Shown here piece after piece: positions 1 through 13,901 of a DNA stretch of 13,901 bases; position 1 is the first letter of the stretch, and the number at the start of each line of letters is the position of its first letter. This DNA is from Oehlia diaphana. Lineage: Eukaryota > Glomeromycota > Glomeromycetes > Glomerales > Glomeraceae. The notes below the pieces were generated by a model. It made no database searches. It saw nothing but the letters and a program-made list of their open reading frames with translations, and was not told the origin of the DNA. The DNA is taken from the NCBI GenBank assembly GCA_003833135.1, contig QZLH01000357.1:70789-84689 (forward strand). Direction: 5' to 3'. The position numbers were made by a program, and so were the translations under genes.

Positions 1-81
1 ATCTAACCCGATAAGTTTAAAAGCTATTGACATGCTCTATTAAAATTATTGGTTAGAATTTTAAAATATTATTTTTTAATA

Positions 82-109
82 ATGTGACATTTTTTTAAAA
101 ATGTCATAT
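82..109 (-). other. Hairpin just downstream of the micro-exon gene stop codon
   Basis: Bases 82-94 and 97-109 form a 13-bp stem with one mismatch (a G-U pair in one transcript) and a very short loop. It lies 6 bases past the TAG at 117-115 on the minus strand, so it would be in the 3' untranslated region. A role in RNA 3' end formation or stability is only a guess; in DNA this AT-rich, such stems can arise by chance. Confidence 0.4.
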
Positions 110-114
110 TATGA

Positions 115-3100
115 CTATAAATTGGGTTGGTTATAGAGGTACTGCACTGTAGTATGTAAATATTATATAAATAAGTAGTAATAGAATTAAATAAATAACT
201 TACCATCTATAAATTAATTTTTTAAATAAAGAAATTAGATAGTTTAAATTATATGCAAATATTATATAAACAAGTAATAATAGAATTAAATAAATAACTT
301 ACTCCCTATATTATAAATAGTTTTTTTTTTAAATAAAGAATTTAGTTATTAAATTATATATAAATATTATACAAATAAGTAATAATAGAATTAAATAAAT
401 AACTTACACCCTATATTATTAAATAATTTTTTAAATAAAGATATGTAAATATTATACAAATGAGTAATAATAGAATTAACAAATAACTTATAACTTACGA
501 TCTATTAAATAAAGAATTTAATCAGTTTAAATTATATGTAAATATTATAAACAAGTAATAATAAAATTAAATAAATAACTTACACCCTATATTATTAAAT
601 AATTTTTTAAATAAAGAATTTAGTTATTAAATTATATGTAAATATTATACAAATAAGTAATAGAATTTTTCTAACTATCACCAGGGTGATGATACCCCAG
701 TGATTTGAAGTAAAAATCTAATAATAGAATTAAATAAATAACTTACGAACTATATATTAAATAATTTTTTAAATAAAGAATTGAGTTATTAAATTGTATG
801 TAAATATTATACAAATAGGTAATAATAGAATTAAATAAATAACTTACAACCTATATATTATTAAATAATTTTTTAAATAAAGAATTTAGTTATTAAATTA
901 TATGCAAATAAATTATATGTAAATATTATACAAATAAGTAATAATAGAATTAAATAAATAACTTACTCCCTATATTATTAAATAATTTTTTAAGTAAAGA
1001 AATTAGTTAGTTTAAATCATATGTAAATATTATATAAATAAGTAATAATAGAATTAAATAAATAACTTATAACTTACGATCTATTAAATAAAGAATTTAA
1101 TCAGTTTAAATTATATGTAAATATTATATGAACAAGTAATAATAAAATTAAATAAATAACTTACTCTCTATATTATTAAATGATTTTTAAATAAAGAATT
1201 TAGTTATTAGATTAAATGCAAATATTATACAAATAAGTAATAATAAAATTAAATAAATAACTTATAACTTACGATCTATTAAATAATGAATTTAGTTAGA
1301 TTAAATTATATGTAAATATTATATAAATAAGTAATAATAGAATTAAATAAATAACTTACTCCCTATATTATAAAATAAATTATTTATAAATATTATACAA
1401 ATAAATAATAATAGAATTAAATAAATAATTTGATCAGTTTAAATTATATACAGTATAAATATTATATAATAATAATAAAATTAAATAAATAACTTACACA
1501 CTATATTATTAAATAATTTTTTAAATAAAGAATATAGTTATTAAATTATATGAAAATATTATACAATAGAATTAAATAACTTACACTCTATATTATTAAT
1601 AATTTTTTAAATAAAGAATTTAGTTAATTTAAATTATATGTAAATATTATATAAATAAGTAATAATAGAATTAAATAAATAACTTACTCCCTATATTAAA
1701 TAAATTTTTAAATGAAGAATTAGTTATTAAATTATATGTAAATATTATATAAATAAGTAATAATAAAATTAAATAAATAACTTAAACTTACGATCTATTA
1801 AATAAGGAATATACTAGTTAGTTTAAATTATTTGTAAATATTATATAAATAAGTAATAATAGAATTAAATAAATAACTTACGAACTATATTATTAAATAA
1901 TTTTTTAAATAAAGAATTTAGTTATTAAATTAAATGTAAATAATATATTAAATAAGTGATAATAGAATTAAATAAATAACTTACTCACTATTATTAAAAC
2001 ATTTTTTAAATAAAGAATTCAGTTAGTTTAAATTATATGTAAATATTATATAAACAAGTAATAATAGAATTAAATAAAAAACTTATAACTTACGATCTAT
2101 TAAATTAAGAATTTAGTTAGTTTAAATTATACGTAAATATTATATAAACGAGTAATAATAGAAATAAATAACCTATAACTTACAATCTATTAAATAAAGA
2201 ATTCAGTTAGTTTAAATTATATGAATAAGTAATAATAGAATTAAATAAATAACTAATAACTTACGACCTATTAAATAAAGAATTTAGTTAGTTTAAATTA
2301 TGTTTAAATATTATATAAACAATTAAATAAATAACTTACTTCCTATATTTTTAAATAATTTTTTAAATAAAGAATTTAGTTATTATATTATATATAAATA
2401 TATATACAAATAAGTAATAATAGAATCAAATAAATTTAACTTACCATCTATAAATTAATTTTTTAATAAAGAAATTAGATAGTTTAAATTATATGTAAAT
2501 ATTATATAAACAAGTAATAATAGAATTAAATAAATAACTTATAACTTACAATCTATTATAAAGAGTTTAAAATTATATGTAAATAAGTAATAGTAGAATT
2601 AAATAAATAACTCATAACTTACGGTCTATTAAATAAAGAATTTATTAGTTTGAATTATGTAAATATTATATAAACAAGTAATAATAGAATTAAATAAATA
2701 ACTTATAACTTACAATCTATTAAATAAAGAATTCAGTTAGTTTAAATAATATGTAAATAAGTAATAATAGAATTAAATAAATAACTTATAACTTACGATC
2801 TATTAAATAAAGAATTCAGTTAGTATAAATTATATATAAATAAGTAATAATAAATAACTTATAACTTACTATCTATTAAATAAAGAATTCAATTAGTTAA
2901 ATTATATGTAAATATTATATAAATAAGTGATAATAAATAACTTATAACTTACAATCTATTAAATAAAGAATTTAGTTGGTTTAAATTATATGTAAATATT
3001 AGTATATAAGTAAGTAATAATAGAATTAAAAAAAATAACTTATAACTTACTAACTATTAAATAAAAAATTTAGTTAGTATAAATTATATGTAATATTATA

Positions 3101-3812
3101 TAAAAAGTAATAATAGAATTAAATAAATAACTTACTGTCTATAAAATAATTTTTTAAATAAACTATTTAGTTAGTTTAAATTTTAAATTATATAAATAAT
3201 AGGAATAGAAATATGACTTACACCCTATTGTATTATTAATTATAAATTAATTAGATGTAAACAATACACAAGTATTTACTGTAAAATTAAATATATTACT
3301 TACAATCTAATTATTTAAATTAAGAATATAATTAGCGAATTATATAAAATATTAGTCAAACAAAGTATAATGTTGTAACTTACCAACTGTAATGCAAATA
3401 ATTATATAAATAAAGAATTTAGTTATTTGAATATTTTATAAATAAATAAAGTAAAGAACTAAAGATTTAAAATAACTGATAACTTACAGACTATAGTATT
3501 GTTATCATCAAATGAATTATTTAGTTACATGAAATATAATAAAATAATAAGTTTTGTATAATATAGATAGTTTAAATTATATTTGTGTATCATATAAGGT
3601 AAAATTATATATAGTATTTAAATTATTTACAAACAAAATTTAATATTCCAGCTTGTTTAATATACCTTTAGAAACCTCAGTGCTACTTCCTTCAAAATTT
3701 TCAATACTACTGGAAACTAGTTTTATTATATTGCAAATTTAAAAATTTTAGAATTTTATTAATTATTTGTGCTATATATATGATTATTACCTTTATTATT
3801 ACTATGAGACAT
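115..3812 (-). CDS. Predicted 38-exon micro-exon gene (35 consecutive 3-nt exons), 69 residues, unknown function
   Basis: I do not recognise this protein. Exon 1 (3812-3791) begins with ATG and ends AAAG before GTAATA. Exon 2 (3716-3666) is 51 nt, Ser/Glu-rich, and ends AAAG before GTATAT. Then 35 sites from 3490 to 204 read AG-NNN-GTAAGT, each a possible 3-nt exon. The last exon (146-115) follows ACTACAG and ends in TAG at 117-115. The lengths 22+51+105+32 give 210 nt, exactly 70 codons including stop. Exons 1 and 2 impose phase 1; in that phase the joined triplets have no stop, and the peptide is rich in Tyr, His, Asn, Arg and Trp. All 35 array donors are GTAAGT; 33 of 35 acceptors end ATAG. 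Introns within the array are 70-160 nt. No signal peptide is evident. The motif pattern is seen directly; splicing of every micro-exon is inferred. An alternative is one large intron, or an untranscribed satellite. Confidence 0.6.
120..3500 (-). repeat. Tandem array of intron-like units with a variable triplet in each
   Basis: About 35 diverged units, usually 73-119 bp apart, make up this very AT-rich stretch. Read on the minus strand, a unit has a GTAAGTTA donor, an A/T body, a CTAAC-, ATAAC- or CTGAT-like branch site about 20 nt or more before the acceptor, and an (A/T)ATAG acceptor. Two subtypes alternate irregularly: one ends ATTTAATAG and often has a doubled GTAAGTTATAAGTT start; the other has a longer T/A run and ends AATATAG. 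Units above about 3180 are more diverged but keep the AG-NNN-GTAAGT junction. Expansion by unequal exchange is likely. Confidence 0.93.
677..704. repeat. Hairpin inside a roughly 50-bp insertion in one array unit
   Basis: The bases at 677-687 and 694-704 pair over 11 positions around a 6-nt loop. In the minus-strand RNA the stem contains two G-U pairs. The hairpin lies in about 50 bp (roughly 663-716) that is foreign to the array. TAATAGAAT occurs on both sides of the insert. It lengthens the intron between triplets 749-747 and 586-584 to 160 nt but leaves that intron's splice sites intact. Confidence 0.7.
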
Positions 3813-4299
3813 TATTATATAATTATATTAAAATGCCCTTTAACTGAAAAAGACAATGTAAATATTTTATTTTTTTTTATGCAAAATGCATTATATACAA
3901 AGCGCTGATCATCACGAGTGCAAGCACATGTATGACAACAAATTTTGCACATCCAGACGGAATATGAATGTATATCAATTACCAAGCCTGTAGCAAAAAT
4001 TATAAAACAGAAAATTGTTCTTAAAATTTAAGGGTTAATATTAACGTTGCTAATGCTGATTATTACATATTTACCACAAATTCAGGTCGAAATGTTTCAA
4101 AATTTTCATAAATTTTATCAATTAATAGCTTATCGTTTATAATTAATAAATATACACGTATGTTATTCCATAGTATCAATGAATAGCAGAAATATTCACT
4201 GATGCCTTGGGGCCCCGAAGGGAGGGAAGCATCGGTGTATATGGAGTATTATTAGAATAACAGGCTTATCATTGCGTATGACGTATTAGGGGTGCAGAC
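3813..4299 (-). promoter_or_regulatory. Upstream region of the micro-exon gene, candidate TATA box at 3897-3891
   Basis: There is no convincing coding sequence here. On the minus strand TATATAA lies at 3897-3891, about 80 bp before the ATG at 3812-3810. A pyrimidine tract ending TTTTTCAG (about 3855-3844) looks like a 3' splice site and could close a 5' UTR intron. Base composition is less AT-rich than in the array (for example 3900-3960 and 4200-4240). The region also has an imperfect GC-rich stem around GGGGCCCC (4209-4216). The MULE element begins at 4300, about 490 bp upstream of the ATG. Confidence 0.35.
4291..4299. repeat. Left 9-bp target-site duplication of the MULE
   Basis: GGTGCAGAC sits directly outside the left inverted repeat and is matched exactly at 8088-8096. 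Confidence 0.95.
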
Positions 4300-4424
4300 G
4301 CAAAAATTACCTTCTTGACCCTCCTCGTGTTACTTTCTTGACCCGGTCAAAATATGCATGATTATGTATGACAAAAATATTTTTTTCTTGACCTGAATGT
4401 GATAAAAAATTATGTGATAAGTAG
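4300..4424 (+). repeat. Left terminal inverted repeat (125 bp)
   Basis: It starts GCAAAAATTACC and is the reverse complement of 7962-8087 except for one missing A near 4396. It holds three copies of TTCTTGACC (4312-4320, 4335-4343, 4385-4393). The middle copy extends into a palindrome, TTGACC-C-GGTCAA (4338-4350). These are candidate transposase-binding sites. Confidence 0.95.
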
Positions 4425-4546
4425 AAACAATTTTTATTTTTAAAATTTTTTTTTTTATTTTTTATTTTTGTTGTACTGTATATTGGAAAAAACCTATTTA
4501 ACAGACTTTATTAATTATATTAAACATTTAAAGGCTCTAATATTAT

Positions 4547-7500
4547 TTAAACATAATAGTAAAGTCTACTTTCTTCTTGTCTATTATCGGAACTTGAGAA
4601 ATTCAAAGTACTGGACGCAGTTATACTACTATTTTGAGATGTGGCAAATGAGTTAGAATTAAAAAGGTATGTAGGTGAAAGAGAATATGGGTTTTGATCA
4701 GGTGGACAATTGTTTGATGGTACCGTAGAATTTGAATAATACGGTACGGTACTAGGAAATGAAATTGGTAAATTTGTAGGAGATAATACATAAGAAGAAT
4801 CAATGGAAGTTCGTAAAACGGATGGTAAAGGCTGAATATAGTCATTTCGCGAATAAGATTGCATGATTGTTGATTGAGTATCTTGAAGGGGTAATGTAGT
4901 TAAAGGTTCATATAGATTTTTGATATTTTTAATGTTTTCCTAAATTAAGTTTCGTTAGAAAGAACTGTATTTGTAATTAATTACTTTAATAAATTTATAA
5001 TACCTTTGCATCCCGAATATTTTTTCTGATTCTTTTTGTGCTTCTTGTTTGTTCAGAAGGTGAAATATTTCGTTCAGTAGTTTTAAGAATCCTACTTGGT
5101 TTTCTTGGTTTTGCTGATGATTTCGGAGGTGCCCCATTATTACCCTTATGATGATCAAATTCTACAGGCCGGAACGGATCTTTATTATTCTCATTTGGTC
5201 GAGAGTATGATTTAAATATCGATATACCTAAATAAAATTAGCTAGATTAATTCATTAGAACTACTAAGCTTAAATTCTTTTTAAAATACTACCATGAGTT
5301 TTATATAAATCAATTATTTCTGAATAAGCAGCCTCAACATCACCATTATATATCACTAGATTTTTGATTCTGCAGGTAATACTCTTTACTTATTTTTAAA
5401 ATATTGTACCAACTCCTTTTTAACTTCTTGCTTAAACAATAATAGATCTGAAACTCCAATTGATTCTTTAAAAATTGATGCTGCATGACAGTGTTTGCAG
5501 ACATCTCTGAATGGACCATTCCATACATAATCAAAACATGTACATTCTCCTGTTTTTATATTGATTAAATAATATTCGGAATGTTCTAAATAATCTGGGA
5601 TCTTGTTTAAGTGTTGTTCCATTAGCTTGCTATGCAACGGAATAAGCAAGTTCAAATTATCCTTATCCAGCCGAACTAATTCATTGTTATATGGAGATTC
5701 TAATGCAAATGGATTATTGCCCTTTTTTACATAAAAATAATCATCAATACCAGTGCATTTAACGTAATCCAACAGAAATAATAATCTTCCATGATTTATT
5801 CTGCGTAATTTATCTGATGCGATATGCGTAGCTTGTGATTCCTATTAAAAAAGAATTATTTTTATAATAAATAAATAAATAAATATAAAATGTAGTGATG
5901 ACAATACCTGTTCAATTGTTTGCATATCAAATATTGTTGCAAGTCCAGCTTCAAACCTTAAATTGCCGCATCCATCTGTTAAATTTTCTCGAAGTAATTG
6001 AATGCCATACAATCGTTCAATAAAATTGACAACTGTTTTTGTACCACTATATTGAGACTCAATTGTACGATTTAGTCTTTCCGTGTAATTATTTGTTGTC
6101 ATGATATGCGTTATACTTGGATTTTCAAGAATTCTTCCAGCATCTATAAAACTTAAAATCCATTCATTACAAATCTAATTGTTATAGAGATCTTTAACTA
6201 ATTATTTTTTAATTCCTGTGTAATATCCAGCGAATTAATAAATTCTGAATATAATGGTCCTAATTCTTTAGCTAACTCTACAGATCTACTTCTACCTTTT
6301 AAATGCCAATGCTATTGGATATCTATAAAATTTATAAATATAAATAAATTATAACATAAATTCTTAGAATAAAAAACGCGTATACCTTAATGGCCATGGT
6401 ACTTTCCAATTATTCAGGTTTTCACCGAATGTCTGCATGATATGAAACCAACACAAAATTGTGCGGTCTAACACATTTTCAGTAGCTATTTTAGTTGGTC
6501 GATGTTTATCCATCATTACCAACGGAATCCAATTGTGATTTTTGGCACATTCTGTAATCCTTTGAAAACCTTTTTCATTTGGCAAATCTTCATAATACCA
6601 TTTATGTTCACAATTTGAATCATTGCATGGTATATTATTTTTCAATGCAATACTAGTTGTCCAGTTATTTTCTTTATTAGATAATCTTAAATAAATACAT
6701 AAATAAATTATTCACAAATTTAAAGTAAAATTTCAATTTTTTTTCTTACCAAATACTAATGGTGTGCCAAATCCAGCATCATTTTCAGCTACAATTGCAA
6801 GTACTGGTGTGCGATCACTATTTAAGTCATACTTGCTATCAACTCCAATACAGTATTTTCCATACCTTTGAGCATTTTTTAACCATAAGTGATTTGATAA
6901 TGTTAATTGATAAAAACGTTCTGAATTTGTTTCCGAAGATGATAAATCAGGTTGTTGATAATAAAGAACATTTCCCTTTGGTTTAAGTATTTCATTAACT
7001 AAATAGTGCAAGATTGTCCATGGTCCCGCATTCTCTTTAGTTCGTCTATCATCACGCACCAAAAACCTATACAATTTTTTATCCTCACATAATTCTTTTT
7101 GATTACGTAGTGCTTCTCACAAATCTTCTTCGTTAGCACCATTGTATGGAGCTAACATTTTTGCTTTAATATTCTTTGTTGTTTTATGGTCTGCTCTACG
7201 GTTTATTATAATATTATCACGTACTTGCCTAGTTAAACTCAACCGGTTAATTTGTGGTGTATGTGTTGTAAGAACATTGGATGGTAAATGGCTATTTAGA
7301 ACTTTTATTTTAAGAGGACATGGACGATCAATTTTAGATAAATATACTTCTGAAATGATTCGTACTTTGCACAAATGCATATCATTATAGTTTTTTAGAT
7401 TATTTGGTAATGCTTCATTTTGACAACCTTCTATGCATTTACCAATTCCACCACATTCATATTGACAAGAATTACCATCCCCAGAACAATACATTACCCA

Positions 7501-7845
7501 AGACCAGCATAATTTATCTTTTTTTACTCCTGCTTCAATTTGTTTAACTAGTTCCTCTCCCTTTTCTGTTAATTTAACTATATCATCAATCCGGTTAGTT
7601 GATTTTGTTTGACCAGTTTTTGTTTGCCATTCGATAAAATCAACAGCTCCTTCAACACGTTCAATTGTGATAATCCCTTCTTTAACTAATTCAGGAGTTT
7701 TCTTTCGACTTTGACTCTTTAAACGAATATTTTTAAGCAAAGGATGATTTTTTAGATAATATTCTGCAACCCGACCAAATGGAACATTAACAGAATTTTC
7801 AGCAGTATTATATTCAATAAAATTTTCAAAGTTGCTATTATTCAT
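4547..7845 (-). pseudogene. MULE transposase with DDE core and SWIM zinc finger, degraded
   Basis: Six exons fit: 7845-6750, 6685 or 6671-6386, 6322-5908, 5841-5293, 5227-5004 and 4939-4547, roughly 990 codons, with introns of 63-78 nt. The last intron has a TTCTAACG branch site. The N-terminus has a Cys-rich segment (residues 113-141) that may bind zinc. The first catalytic Asp is in GVDSKYD (codon 6840-6838). The second is in VMMDKHRP (6510-6508), followed by C-W-F-H at 6453-6442. The third acid is not certain. A SWIM finger, C-x-C-x12-C-x-H, lies at 5544-5491, and the C-terminal tail is Ser/Pro/Asn-rich. Breaks are in-frame stops TGA 7119-7117, TAG 6177-6175 and TAA 5388-5386, and frameshifts near 6296-6303, 6205-6217 and 5362-5370, all beside A-runs. 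With the nearer acceptor (6686), intron 1 also puts the next exon out of frame; the acceptor at 6672 restores it. Confidence 0.9.
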
Positions 7846-7961
7846 TGTATTGTATAAATTGTGTAAAAAGAAAACTAAAAAAAAATACTGGAGTCAAGAC
7901 GCGTCATATAATAAAATGTAACACGTATTATTTATGTAACGCAATTATCACTAATACTGTG

Positions 7962-8087
7962 CTACTTATCACATAATTTTTTATCACATTTCAGGTCAAG
8001 AAAAAAATATTTTTGTCATACATAATCATGCATATTTTGACCGGGTCAAGAAAGTAACACGAGGAGGGTCAAGAAGGTAATTTTTGC
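7962..8087 (-). repeat. Right terminal inverted repeat (126 bp)
   Basis: It is the mirror copy of the left repeat, with one extra base, and carries the same three TTCTTGACC motifs in inverse orientation. The transposase ATG at 7845 lies about 117 bp inside it, so this end probably also contains or adjoins the promoter. Confidence 0.95.
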
Positions 8088-8096
8088 GGTGCAGAC
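8088..8096. repeat. Right 9-bp target-site duplication of the MULE
   Basis: GGTGCAGAC directly follows the right inverted repeat and is identical to 4291-4299. Confidence 0.95.
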
Positions 8097-8244
8097 TTTT
8101 CCTTTTTTTTAGCTACGTCACTCATTAAGTCAATGAAAGGCTGCAACTCGTGATGTAGCTAAATTATTATAAAATTTCTATGTTGACGTTATTGGCGTAA
8201 CTTTGTTACGGCAGTTACGTCGGTAAAGCACCTCTATGACGTAT

Positions 8245-8319
8245 ACACCGATGGATTTCATACTTTTTTATACTTCTTTTATACTGGTGGATTAATTTAC
8301 AAAGAAAATCCATCGGTGT
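8245..8319. repeat. 75-bp fold-back with 14-bp perfect inverted ends
   Basis: ACACCGATGGATTT at 8245-8258 is the exact reverse complement of 8306-8319, with a 47-bp A/T-rich loop. A partial copy of the end motif (CATCGGTGT) lies at 4230-4238, on the far side of the MULE. It may be a small MITE-like repeat; I see no clear target duplication. Confidence 0.5.
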
Positions 8320-8743
8320 TTCCATAGATGGAGCGAGCAGATTAGTATAGGATAGGTGGCAAAAGTTACACAAAAAAATCCGATGTCTTTATGATATGAA
8401 CATTTTTTACCAATGCACGCATAAGTTAAAAAAATATAAGTCCGATAAGATTAAAACTTTATTAATGATATTTCAGATACATAGCGAATCAGAAAGTGAT
8501 AGAGGTAGTAAGAGAAATAAAACATCATGATGGTATCAAAGAGGGAGAAAATACACGGATCCTAGGTGCCACATCACGCTTATTTCTTTGCTCTCTCACA
8601 TTTCCGGTAATATCTATAGCTAATAAAATTATTCTTCTATCTATATGCTACGTTAATATAATTACATCACGAAAATCTGGTCAACGGATTCACTTAAAAT
8701 TATAATAAAACGCTACAAATATACAAAGATTTTTCGATTTATT

Positions 8744-8891
8744 TTATCCAAGTGGGACTTTAGGTCTCACTTTTTTATCACCATACATCTCTATTTCACG
8801 CTTGATACTATGTATATCCATTTCGGCCGAAATCTTTATTGATGTAGTAAATAAATTACGTGATTCAATTTGTAATGGCCCGTCAGCAAAA
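8744..8891 (-). other. Possible terminal exon, about 49 codons, unrecognised
   Basis: On the minus strand a good acceptor (TTTTTCTTACAAG) is followed by an open stretch ending in TAA at 8746-8744. The peptide (including SFADGPLQIESRN and a Lys/Glu-rich end) looks more protein-like than the surroundings. No upstream exon is evident. It could be a remnant of a host gene or effector, or chance. Confidence 0.2.
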
Positions 8892-9064
8892 CTTGTAAGA
8901 AAAATTTTTATTAATACATGCGAAAAATATCAATACAAAGATGGGGACTGTGCCTATGATCCATGACGATTTTTCCTATGCTAATGCCCTAATTTCTGAA
9001 ATATTAAGATACGTCCTAATTATCTATTTTGACTCGCTTTCCATCAACTCCTAAAAATGAAACG

Positions 9065-10530
9065 TCATCGCGGACCCCTAATGATGATTAAAAACCCACT
9101 AACCCACTTGATTTGCCCAAATAATTTCTCGATAAGTCCGACTAGGTCATCGCGGGATAATGATGGGTAGTTGATAGGTAGAGGTGTGGGAGTAGGCGAA
9201 CACAAAAAACTTCGACCTCTCATCACTATTATCATTTCCATCTCCAATACCATTTTGAACTTTCGTTATTATCCAGTCAACTCTTGAAATATCAAATAAA
9301 AGAGTTAGTAATAATCGCTGTAATTTTGATCAAGTAGTAATTCAGGTCATTTTTCGAATTTGTTTTACAAGCATACCCGCAGTACATTGCACCTTCATAC
9401 AAATCAGCATCATTATAAATAAGTTTTTTGCGATTGCATTGTAAAGATGCATGTGCTTGGACAGTGCTCTGGGCAACCCCTTGGTTAATATCTTCTCGTT
9501 TTGCTTCAGTTACAGAAATAATTGTGTCGCCCATTTGATCACCAAATGGGTCCTTCCATGACTTCCGGAGACTTCATACTGGGGATAAACCTTTACAGTA
9601 CCATCAAAGATAAACGTCACACTATATATAATTGCGAAAAATAAATTCACAGCGGGTGGCCTCATTGCGCTAGTGATGGGCGGGCTTTCTTAAAAAATCC
9701 TCAATCACACTGTTCCTGATCTCTTCTGGAGTTGATGAATTTCCAATCTCAATACATGGTAATTGATCATAGCAATAGCCTTCAAACCGAAAGAATCTTC
9801 ATCTTGGGGAAATGTACGAAGAGAAAGGTTGTTGCGTTATAAAAACAGCAAAAGGTGCCGTGAATAAATTAACGGATCAGACAATTAATGGAATTGACAC
9901 GTGAAATATCCTAAATATATTGCTATATTGCTAGTACTTACACGTATCCACAACTATTTCAGCTCCACCTTGGGGTTAGTAGTCCAGATAATGCTCAATA
10001 AATCCTCGTTAGCAGAAAATTGAATAACTTTGCGCTCGTCTAAATTCACCACGATATGCTCGTTTTCTGTCCCATCTGGAAACGTTAAATATTCACAAAG
10101 CTTCTTTCTTAAAACCTTTCAACGTCTCCATTTCTCGCGTCACTGTCCACTGAAACTTTTTACCTTACGCCCATCGGCCCATACGTTGCGGTGCAGTGAA
10201 CTTCTTTCGTTTGGACGCTGTACGATTATATGTGTGTGTTCGTCGGCTGGTTGATAGGGGAAATGTTTGCTAATCTTCGAAAGTGGAAGCAATTTCATAC
10301 CGTCAAGTTCGTCCTTAATATTGACGTTAATTTTTGTATAAACAAAGTTAAGTTTTTCGTTTTCTTCTTCGAGGGAAATGTCGACCTTTCATAGCTTAAT
10401 GTCGTTAGGGAAACGTTCTCAAACTTAGGGTGAAGCTTTTCCTTGATAGCTTCCCTGAAAAAATTAACCGCTTCTGTCTTATTAACTTTTACGATGAAAG
10501 CATTTTCATAAGGGTTCTAAGGGTAAAGCC
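9065..10530 (-). pseudogene. Crinkler (CRN)-type effector relic with restriction-endonuclease-like domain
   Basis: Several minus-strand fragments lie in the order of one gene. The header pieces (10516 to about 10413, then 10406-10140) resemble the ubiquitin-like CRN N-terminus, ending in the conserved HIIVQRP-like strand. A middle piece (10115-9954) is open but unassigned; a GTAAGT donor follows near 9942. The nuclease pieces cover about 9800-9292 and contain VTEAKREDINQG (E-x-K codons 9507-9499), the active-site signature of PD-(D/E)xK enzymes. A tail at 9253-9065 ends near LFGQIKW. Breaks include frameshifts near 10406-10412, 10142, 10113 and 9965, between 9690 and 9665, and near 9555-9530, plus a TGA at 10391-10389. 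The Asp expected just upstream of E-x-K is not readable. CRN proteins are known from oomycetes and are abundant in Rhizophagus; some act in host nuclei. This copy cannot make a full protein. Confidence 0.7.
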
Positions 10531-12966: not shown

Positions 12967-13901
12967 ATGTACTCTTCAAAAAAATTCTTACAAAAAAACT
13001 TAAAAAACATTGCTAAAAACCACAAAAACACCTCGGACTTACAAGACATCCAAAACACATACGGAACCTCACAAAGTCTTCCACCTCACTCATATAGACA
13101 AAACACATCTCCAATATCCTCGGACGATAACGTAAATAAGAAAACTACTTTACAAACACCCATTACTCTTTTCAACATGGAAGATATTCAATACGAAAAA
13201 CCTTCTTCGCAAAATGAAGGTTGGGACTACACAGAGTCACCTGACCAAACCACATTTGGAAATCCAGATATCACCCTACACGATCAACATACAAATACCG
13301 GTTTTGCACCAATCAATGCAAATACCAATGATCAACAATCAAATGACTCTCCAAATTTAACCGAACTTACCCCCAACAATATGGAGATAGACAATCAAAC
13401 ATCTCAAACTCCCAATAAAGGAAAATCTCCTGTAGATAACACACAATCTCAGAATCCTACAGTTGATAATGACGGCATAAAAATATTACACAACATATTT
13501 TCAGCAAACAACAAAGAAATCCCAACCATACACGAAGCATTCATCCCGCGTGATAGCTTTAAATCAGAATTAACAAGACATGACATCATAGACATAATCA
13601 AAAATGCTTTCATTACAGAACACAACGCAATTACTTTCAATTTTAGGAGCACAGCTACATTCCAATACATAATTATTGGTTTCAAATCACGTGAATCACT
13701 CGAAAGATACATCAAAGAATCACCCAAACAACTACGTAATATCAAAATCTACGAATTAACCAAAGAAAACATCAATACACTTATAGATCATAAATTTCAA
13801 TCACAAGACAACTCGGTTGTCAAAATCTTAGATATCCCTTACGATTACGATAACAAACTTATCATCAAACACTTAGCCAACACAACCGGTGTAGGAATAG
13901 T
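12967..13901 (+). CDS. LINE-like ORF1 / gag-type RNA-binding protein, 5' part, runs off the window
   Basis: An ATG at 12967 opens a frame of 311 complete codons with no stop to the window end; the preceding in-frame stop is TAA at 12949-12951. A second Met is codon 71. Residues about 20-170 are disordered and rich in Asn, Gln, Thr, Ser, Asp and Pro. Residues about 205-265 look like an alpha/beta RNA-binding fold (TFQYIIIGFKSRESLERYI). From about 284, VVKILDIPYDYDNKLIIKHL resembles the first strand and helix of an RRM. The coding strand is rich in C and A and poor in G, unlike the flanks. Such a layout is typical of the first part of a LINE polyprotein, with zinc knuckles, endonuclease and reverse transcriptase expected beyond 13901; those are not visible. 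It is intact as far as seen. A host RNA-binding protein is the alternative. Confidence 0.6.
   Translation, partial: MYSSKKFLQKNLKNIAKNHKNTSDLQDIQNTYGTSQSLPPHSYRQNTSPISSDDNVNKKTTLQTPITLFNMEDIQYEKPSSQNEGWDYTESPDQTTFGNPDITLHDQHTNTGFAPINANTNDQQSNDSPNLTELTPNNMEIDNQTSQTPNKGKSPVDNTQSQNPTVDNDGIKILHNIFSANNKEIPTIHEAFIPRDSFKSELTRHDIIDIIKNAFITEHNAITFNFRSTATFQYIIIGFKSRESLERYIKESPKQLRNIKIYELTKENINTLIDHKFQSQDNSVVKILDIPYDYDNKLIIKHLANTTGVGI

Follow-up and report, generated by a model that had tools for sequence, protein, structure and literature searches.

A 13,901-nucleotide stretch of the Oehlia diaphana genome (GenBank assembly GCA_003833135.1, contig QZLH01000357.1, positions 70,789 to 84,689; hereafter the window) carries on its minus strand an array of 35 predicted three-base exons, which we read, with a probability of roughly 0.85, as the middle of a gene whose transcript would be spliced from these exons into the linker of a likely protein kinase. 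Between positions 204 and 3490 every one of the 35 junctions consists of an acceptor AG, exactly three bases and the donor GTAAGT, each where a sequence-only reading of this DNA had placed it, and the 19 different forms that it had counted among the triplets were found again. The motif AGNNNGTAAGT occurs 35 times in the window and nowhere outside the array, against a chance mean of 0.32 and a maximum of 4 in 200 dinucleotide-preserving shuffles. The whole window contains 38 minus-strand GTAAGT, and within positions 1–9001 (our locus L010) all 35 have AG exactly 3 bases upstream. The splicing of the three-base exons itself we infer from the spacing of these junctions and from the frame of the joined triplets. 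A little less firmly, we think it probable that the window represents a new gene architecture, in which each codon of a segment is split by a spliceosomal intron of its own, with as many as 49 in succession, and the series is closed by a one-base exon; it would evolve as an intron satellite and would have arisen at least twice in one symbiotic fungus, in kinases and in a Sel1 protein.

The predicted exons of the window gene are listed here with the evidence for each in brackets.

3791..3812, minus strand, first coding exon, ATG..AAAG (M S H S N N K + first base of a codon), donor GTAATA (same exon in L030, L031, L033, L035 and L038)
3666..3716, minus strand, exon 2, acidic (V S S S I E N F E G S S T E V S K + first base of a codon), acceptor CTAG, donor GTATAT (homologous exon in sister loci)
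204..3490, minus strand, chain of 35 predicted three-base exons with 34 introns of 70–160 bases (junction count, shuffles)
3488..3490, minus strand, three-base exon 1, TCT (junction)
3384..3386, minus strand, three-base exon 2, TTG (junction)
3304..3306, minus strand, three-base exon 3, ATT (junction; landmark common to other loci)
3222..3224, minus strand, three-base exon 4, GGT (junction)
3136..3138, minus strand, three-base exon 5, ACA (junction)
3051..3053, minus strand, three-base exon 6, TTA (junction)
2953..2955, minus strand, three-base exon 7, ATT (junction)
2870..2872, minus strand, three-base exon 8, ATA (junction)
2797..2799, minus strand, three-base exon 9, ATC (junction)
2714..2716, minus strand, three-base exon 10, ATT (junction)
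2623..2625, minus strand, three-base exon 11, ACC (junction)
2550..2552, minus strand, three-base exon 12, ATT (junction)
2445..2447, minus strand, three-base exon 13, ATG (junction)
2340..2342, minus strand, three-base exon 14, GAA (junction)
2265..2267, minus strand, three-base exon 15, GTC (junction)
2184..2186, minus strand, three-base exon 16, ATT (junction)
2094..2096, minus strand, three-base exon 17, ATC (junction)
1985..1987, minus strand, three-base exon 18, TGA, no stop in the split frame (junction, frame)
1882..1884, minus strand, three-base exon 19, TTC (junction)
1792..1794, minus strand, three-base exon 20, ATC (junction)
1688..1690, minus strand, three-base exon 21, GGA (junction)
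1585..1587, minus strand, three-base exon 22, AGT (junction)
1498..1500, minus strand, three-base exon 23, TGT (junction)
1363..1497, minus strand, 135-base intron with a unit-like remnant (intron length, remnant read in the sequence)
1360..1362, minus strand, three-base exon 24, GGA (junction)
1273..1275, minus strand, three-base exon 25, ATC (junction)
1165..1167, minus strand, three-base exon 26, AGA (junction)
1078..1080, minus strand, three-base exon 27, ATC (junction)
967..969, minus strand, three-base exon 28, GGA (junction)
848..850, minus strand, three-base exon 29, GTT (junction)
747..749, minus strand, three-base exon 30, TTC (junction)
584..586, minus strand, three-base exon 31, GGT (junction)
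499..501, minus strand, three-base exon 32, ATC (junction)
408..410, minus strand, three-base exon 33, GGT (junction)
303..305, minus strand, three-base exon 34, GGA (junction)
204..206, minus strand, three-base exon 35, ATG, the last before a run of N (junction)

Exon 1, exon 2 and the 35 triplets, when joined, are open throughout and would give the product MSHSNNKVSSSIENFEGSSTEVSKVFDWYINYNHYHYGSHYLIHRKLWNQNRSFRYRWN. Since exon 2 ends one base into a codon, it sets a split frame, in which each codon would take one base from the end of an exon and two from the start of the exon after it. On this reading the triplets themselves are no codons, and the TGA at 1985 does not act as a stop. The proposal of 35 one-triplet micro-exons would therefore stand as regards the chain, which the kept spacing and the ordered open frame support, but not as regards the triplets being codons in themselves. 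The statement that the array varies at just three bases has to be withdrawn, as the 34 window introns vary too (length 70–160; median pairwise identity 0.71, range 0.40–0.98, gaps counted) and what is fixed is AG and GTAAGT. The 135-base intron listed above holds its unit-like remnant without acceptor, triplet or donor; the junction of one unit was apparently lost there cleanly, which equals the loss of one exon. About 50 bases of higher G+C, apparently an insertion, lie at approximately 667–720 within one 160-base array intron. Neither Rfam nor ARAGORN returned anything for the window (0 matches and 0 genes, respectively).

The three-base spacing is shared by a family of loci and is not peculiar to the window; of the spacings 0 to 13, 3 is the only one enriched genome-wide. 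In pattern searches over the 108.8-Mb assembly, with the reversed pattern as control, ATAG-NNN-GTAAGTTAT (spacing 3) was found at 947 places against 12, most of the 100 places listed being clustered in arrays. The genome search for chains of AG-N3-GTAAGT that the sequence-only reading had suggested thus found the spacing kept. No enrichment was seen for spacings of 4–13 (117 places together against 134) or of 0–2 (44 together against 66), and with these last counts and a spacing of 3 the junctions do not have the form of recursive splice sites, in which AG meets GT with no exon. Landmark sequences around an early and the last triplet, with up to 3 mismatches, were present at 53 and 35 places respectively (controls 1 and 0).

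Loci for closer analysis were picked by splice-motif matches and not by frame. We accepted a junction when AG and three bases were followed by a donor that agreed with GTAAGT at five or six of its six positions, and defined a cluster as at least three perfect donors with gaps of at most 450. The main sample, to which the counts below refer, comprises 25 clusters of 22 loci with 585 triplets, both clusters of a Sel1 gene included. It uses 22 of the 30 loci L009–L038 (L009 is N except for a 211-base overlap with L010, L011 overlaps L012, and L023–L028 are without a chain of three), and the arrays examined are part of the genome's total, as gauged by the 53 five-prime and 35 three-prime landmark places. 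Information amounts to 0.10, 0.47 and 0.01 bits at the three triplet positions and 1.74–2.0 bits at the donor positions; AG and GT reach 2.0 bits because the set was chosen by them, and for GTAAGT this is partly so. A less circular count is that AG lies exactly three bases upstream of 529 of the 546 array-strand GTAAGT inside arrays.

Sister loci show the chain as a linker inside a gene with ordinary exons and not as a free-standing array, according to a common plan: a short ATG exon, an acidic exon ending one base into a codon, the three-base exons, a one-base exon and the kinase exon. In three sister genes the reading stays open from ATG through 31, 32 and 49 three-base exons and on into a kinase domain that is intact. 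Of six spliced models built, four are open into the kinase, namely those of L030 (54 exons, 454 amino acids, 49 three-base exons), L038 (36 exons, 441 amino acids, 31 triplets), L033 (37 exons, 484 amino acids) and, up to an N gap, L035, which is open through 41 triplets and whose acidic part includes one extra short exon. The spliced models begin with MSQYIGK, MALSNDK, MGQYIGK and MAHK. PF07714 was found in the two models scanned, L030 and L038, at 3.8e-39 and 1.1e-40 (135 and 140 bits against a cut-off of 23.1). The model of L031 stops after 64 residues, just inside the kinase exon, and its kinase is truncated; that of L032 was built without exon 1 and is out of frame there, which makes its translation uninformative. 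In L019 the kinase is split by approximately 3.5 kb.

The start of the kinase was located in 15 loci; in 14 of them the predicted one-base exon follows the last triplet as AG-A-GTNAGN, and in the 15th (L037) as AG-A-GTAAAT. It gives a junction codon GAA, GAG or GAT, after which the kinase begins in the correct frame with FGKSG or a similar sequence (YGKSG in one case); if it is omitted, the kinase is out of frame. The remaining 7 of the 22 loci are without the kinase start motif: the window (N), the Sel1 gene (L018), L015 and L020, in which the kinase is mostly missing or elsewhere, and L013, L014 and L017, which have divergent kinases and candidate one-base exons AG-G-, AG-A- and AG-T-GTAAGT. 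From these relatives we infer that the window gene likewise leads into a kinase. Chain length ranges from 9 in L016 to 49 in L030, the chain ends vary little between loci (LDDW or FDDW at the start, F as the final residue), and in L012 blocks of several triplets recur (CTC TTA ATG GAA ..). Downstream of kinase exons we also observed two to three tandem units of about 115–120 bases around TTCTTAG-TTT-GTAATT (L015, 7885–8006; L016, 8190–8311; L021, 3742–3971), which may be another repeat of kinase loci.

The order of the triplets bears the trace expected of selection on a protein made from all of them in sequence. When we took the third base of a triplet together with bases one and two of another and counted the stops so formed, with the order shuffled within each array for comparison, immediate neighbours gave 3 in 560 against 27.5 ± 4.0 (0 of 3000 shuffles as low), while partners two to six apart gave 27/535, 27/510, 27/485, 19/460 and 26/437 against shuffled values of 26.4, 25.1, 24.1, 22.8 and 21.8. 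Clusters free of such stops number 22 of 25, against 10.6 after shuffling. Omitting the exons with near-consensus donors makes the frame worse, as perfect donors alone give 7 stops in 504 against 22.9. This depletion, confined to neighbours, would be best explained by the joining of all triplets in order. There is no sign of a selected tolerance to skipping, since about 1 in 20 single skips would make a stop. Free skipping of triplets as a rule was accordingly rejected, stop pairs two to six apart being at the shuffled level; one deposited protein, P0079, is nevertheless a subset model.

We assign a low probability, albeit the highest among the alternatives, to the array being one large intron of 1–5 kb whose triplets are skipped or serve as stepping stones of recursive splicing, exon 2 being joined to the one-base exon and the kinase. 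Such a product would be in frame without any triplet, and the deposited models P0018, P0028, P0043 and P0050 do skip the triplets; left without a reason would be the avoidance of stops by neighbours only, in the very frame that exon 2 sets, and a coding-like choice of T over C. This choice is seen at codons ending in T or C, where C was found in 6 of 180 split-frame codons and in 25 of 370 codons from the kinase exons of three loci, and in this respect the split-frame codon choice resembles that of the kinase exons.

The same comparison bears on a reading, to which we give little credence, that takes the triplets as frame-0 codons and replaces the one-base exon before the kinase by a five-base exon, AGTAA. 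Against it, C stands in 37 of 77 T- or C-ending codons of frame 0, which departs from the kinase exons; the phase in which exon 2 ends sets the split frame; and a five-base exon would require a weaker donor. In its favour, the linkers of P0001, P0014, P0029, P0054, P0078 and P0119 resemble the frame-0 triplets in composition more than they do the split frame or introns, and several of these end in LSKFGKS, as TTG + AGTAA + ATTTGG would give. Frame-0 stops are also rare (4 in 585 against 23.0 with the three positions shuffled independently), but a reciprocal test points to the split frame: with the split-frame codons held fixed, frame-0 stops are 4 in 535 against 7.4 ± 2.1 (P about 0.08), whereas with the triplets held fixed the split-frame stops remain at the 3 in 560 against 27.5 given above. 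The split frame is thus the better supported of the two putative coding frames.

Deposited proteins touch these genes at several points. Rhizophagus kinases of the family are numerous in the protein library (946 at E ≤ 1e-30, 120 listed), and two proteins deposited under Rhizophagus diaphanus, which the NCBI taxonomy names Oehlia diaphana, P0022 and P0079, match pieces of L030 and L038 exactly. P0079, the model of L038, consists of the ATG exon, the acidic exon, the peptide DEWWNRMVEF and a shortened kinase start; the peptide can be spelled in five ways by 8 of the 31 L038 triplets in the split frame together with the one-base exon, and of 300 shuffled strings 0 could be spelled in this manner. 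Gene prediction has thus met with the triplet chain, but the resulting models differ over it. A DUF8211-type model from R. irregularis, P0123, starts with the acidic exon of the array-kinase family (ALSNDKVSGNIEFEGSSTEEFEGSDSGEF..), by fusion or mis-annotation.

Several results weigh against splicing of the complete chain in the split frame. P0079 uses 8 of 31 triplets and has a shortened kinase start, the four models P0018, P0028, P0043 and P0050 contain none, and P0001 and P0014 resemble readings in the frame of the triplets. The kinase end of the window gene lies in a run of N, the contig being N from 61000 (the start of the stretch fetched) to 70788, which adjoins window base 1. Three split-frame stops remain (in L017, L019 and L034); the window by itself is not significant (0 of 34 stops against 1.0 expected); and the held-out loci L039–L041 (88 triplets) gave a weak result in the right direction, 1 stop in 85 against 3.7 ± 1.6, with 336 of 5000 shuffles as low. 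CTAAY was found within 60 bases of only 408 of the 585 acceptors. No intronless retrocopy was recovered: a 25-mer of exon 2 and the first triplets matched 0 genome places with up to 3 mismatches, and a probe of the last triplet, the one-base exon and the kinase matched one, where TTTTTAG precedes the kinase exon, which marks it as plain intron–kinase DNA. In a protein search with the linker piece of P0001, no stop-free row among the 150 matches listed (150 of 1656 candidates scored) starts before query residue 42, and hence no listed match spans the linker (residues 14–52). Codon use is odd as well, with arginine CGG in 29 and AGG in 18 of 69 split-frame codons (kinase exons: AGA in 17 of 30 and no CGG), and with isoleucine ATA in 0 of 27 and leucine TTA in 3 of 54, so that ATA and TTA are lacking relative to the kinase exons. 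A constraint on the triplet at the level of splicing may be the cause; our guess is that an initial TA, which places AG-TA and a GTA beside the acceptor, is perhaps avoided.

The introns themselves are small across the 22 loci (n = 560, median 96 bases, 511 of at most 130 bases). By remainder modulo three these 511 divide into 175, 167 and 169, only 3 of them would be open if retained, and AG becomes scarce over the 30 bases that precede acceptors (7, 7 and 12 per ten bases, then 30, 37 and 37). In the mechanism that we propose, each small intron, with its GTAAGT donor and few AG before the acceptor, would be removed by the ordinary spliceosome through intron definition, the three-base exon being a mere gap left between two complete introns; the one-base exon (AG-A-GTAAGT in sister loci) would then shift the phase so as to bring the kinase exon into frame. 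The array would grow and shrink by tandem duplication and deletion of whole units of intron plus triplet. Each gain or loss would amount to one amino acid with the frame kept, a duplication adding exactly one residue and remaking two codons, and the linker would evolve like a minisatellite. The variable chain length, the recurring blocks of L012, the near-constant ends and the unit lost at 1363–1497 fit such growth and shrinkage by whole units. We would guess that the linker serves as a spacer or an interaction surface.

On the origin of the units alone, it is improbable, if slightly less so than the frame-0 reading, that each intron is a separate introner-like insertion that duplicated three target bases. 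Introner-like elements have been reported in fungi, in the portion of the source available (PMC4457414). Target duplication should, however, equalise neighbouring triplets, and equal neighbours number 0 of 34 in the window; the block repeats of L012 are what unit duplication predicts; and the exact unit pattern of the Sel1 array is confined to that array (10 of 10 genome places), a comparison of dispersal in which kinase-type units were mapped genome-wide for the 100 places listed.

This Sel1 array belongs to a second predicted gene of the same three-base-exon design that is unrelated to the kinase genes. In L018 (G000:C66:41000-50900, 3887–9726, plus strand) at least 17 three-base exons, with introns unlike the kinase-type ones, lie between an ATG exon (MSENTSKRVIRDEGTSEDEI..) and Sel1 repeats (PF08238), and the chain is split-codon and in frame on either side of an N gap inside the array. 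That all this is satellite DNA with chance splice-like motifs and no exon function, as the tandem, partly alike units and some damaged copies (L031, L019) could suggest, is the least credible of the alternatives in view of the frame, the gene context at both ends, the stop depletion confined to neighbours and this second, unrelated array.

We found no report of chains of three-base exons, or of microexons in these fungi, among the open-licence papers listed, with subscription papers and preprints outside the scope. A near likeness is to the MEG genes of Schistosoma mansoni, in which very short exons, most of a length divisible by three, follow one another in tandem and were missed by automatic annotation; the parts of the paper available describe 10–20 short exons of 6–81 bp (3–81 in the abstract), mostly 15, introns of up to about 5 kb and secreted products (PMC10526429). 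In the present genes, by comparison, all exons of the chain are 3 bases long, introns are about 96 bases, chains reach 49 and the product carries a kinase or Sel1 domain. The tandem chain of very short symmetric exons is thus found here, and the MEG sizes of exons and introns are not. Bicycle proteins of aphids carry CYC motifs, and membership of the bicycle genes is unlikely given kinase or Sel1 products. As far as the available text goes, bicycle genes are rich in small internal exons, which almost without exception begin at codon position 2, as the three-base exons do here in the split frame, and one megacycle gene has more than 100 microexons; these genes are effector candidates without this domain plan, and three-base exons are not stated for them in that text (PMC9168663).

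Single-nucleotide exons are described, in the accessible parts of three papers, for Arabidopsis APC11 (PMC4674806), Fusarium CYP621A (PMC12940212) and plant APC11 and VPS55 (PMC8831610), with RNA evidence in two. Like the predicted exon of the sister loci, one base between AG and a donor and needed for the frame, they restore the frame, but they stand alone (PMC4674806, PMC12940212, PMC8831610), whereas the one predicted here, which is not visible in the window, would terminate the three-base series in at least 14 paralogous loci. A three-base micro-exon of Drosophila homothorax is single and alternatively spliced, and no chain appears in the excerpt (PMC7392893). The SP7-like effectors of Rhizophagus share the fungal group and a repetitive segment; in the available portion of the source they have a signal peptide and repeats, the first of which is preceded by a single conserved intron, and neither a kinase nor an exon chain is described (PMC11333574). 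Here a chain of introns lies inside the variable segment, and an SP7-like effector gene, our first guess, was rejected on this difference of structure.

Just upstream of the predicted gene start, window positions 4299–8088 hold a transposon-like element with 99-nt arms of 100% complementarity (4299–4397 and 7990–8088) and minus-strand open reading frames, three of which matched 0 Pfam families; we presume a resemblance to MULE elements. On the plus strand, an open frame of at least 311 amino acids at 12967–13901, of low complexity in its first half, runs off the window.

If these transcripts are spliced as predicted, this spliceosome would have no practical lower limit of exon size. With dozens of exons of three bases and one of a single base, there would be no room for exon-bound splicing factors, so that recognition would have to rest on the introns, and a gene such as L030 would require more than 50 correct splicing events per mRNA. 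The arrays would then be a natural, repeated test of intron definition, of the accuracy of each splicing event and of the intron load that a short coding stretch can carry, and would show a protein growing one residue at a time through intron duplication. Array genes are also misread by current annotation: the deposited relatives examined leave out the triplets, take up a few of them, follow another frame or begin within the gene. This bears on the expanded kinase repertoire of these fungi, put at 2,533 members for R. irregularis in the part of the source available (PMC10234402).

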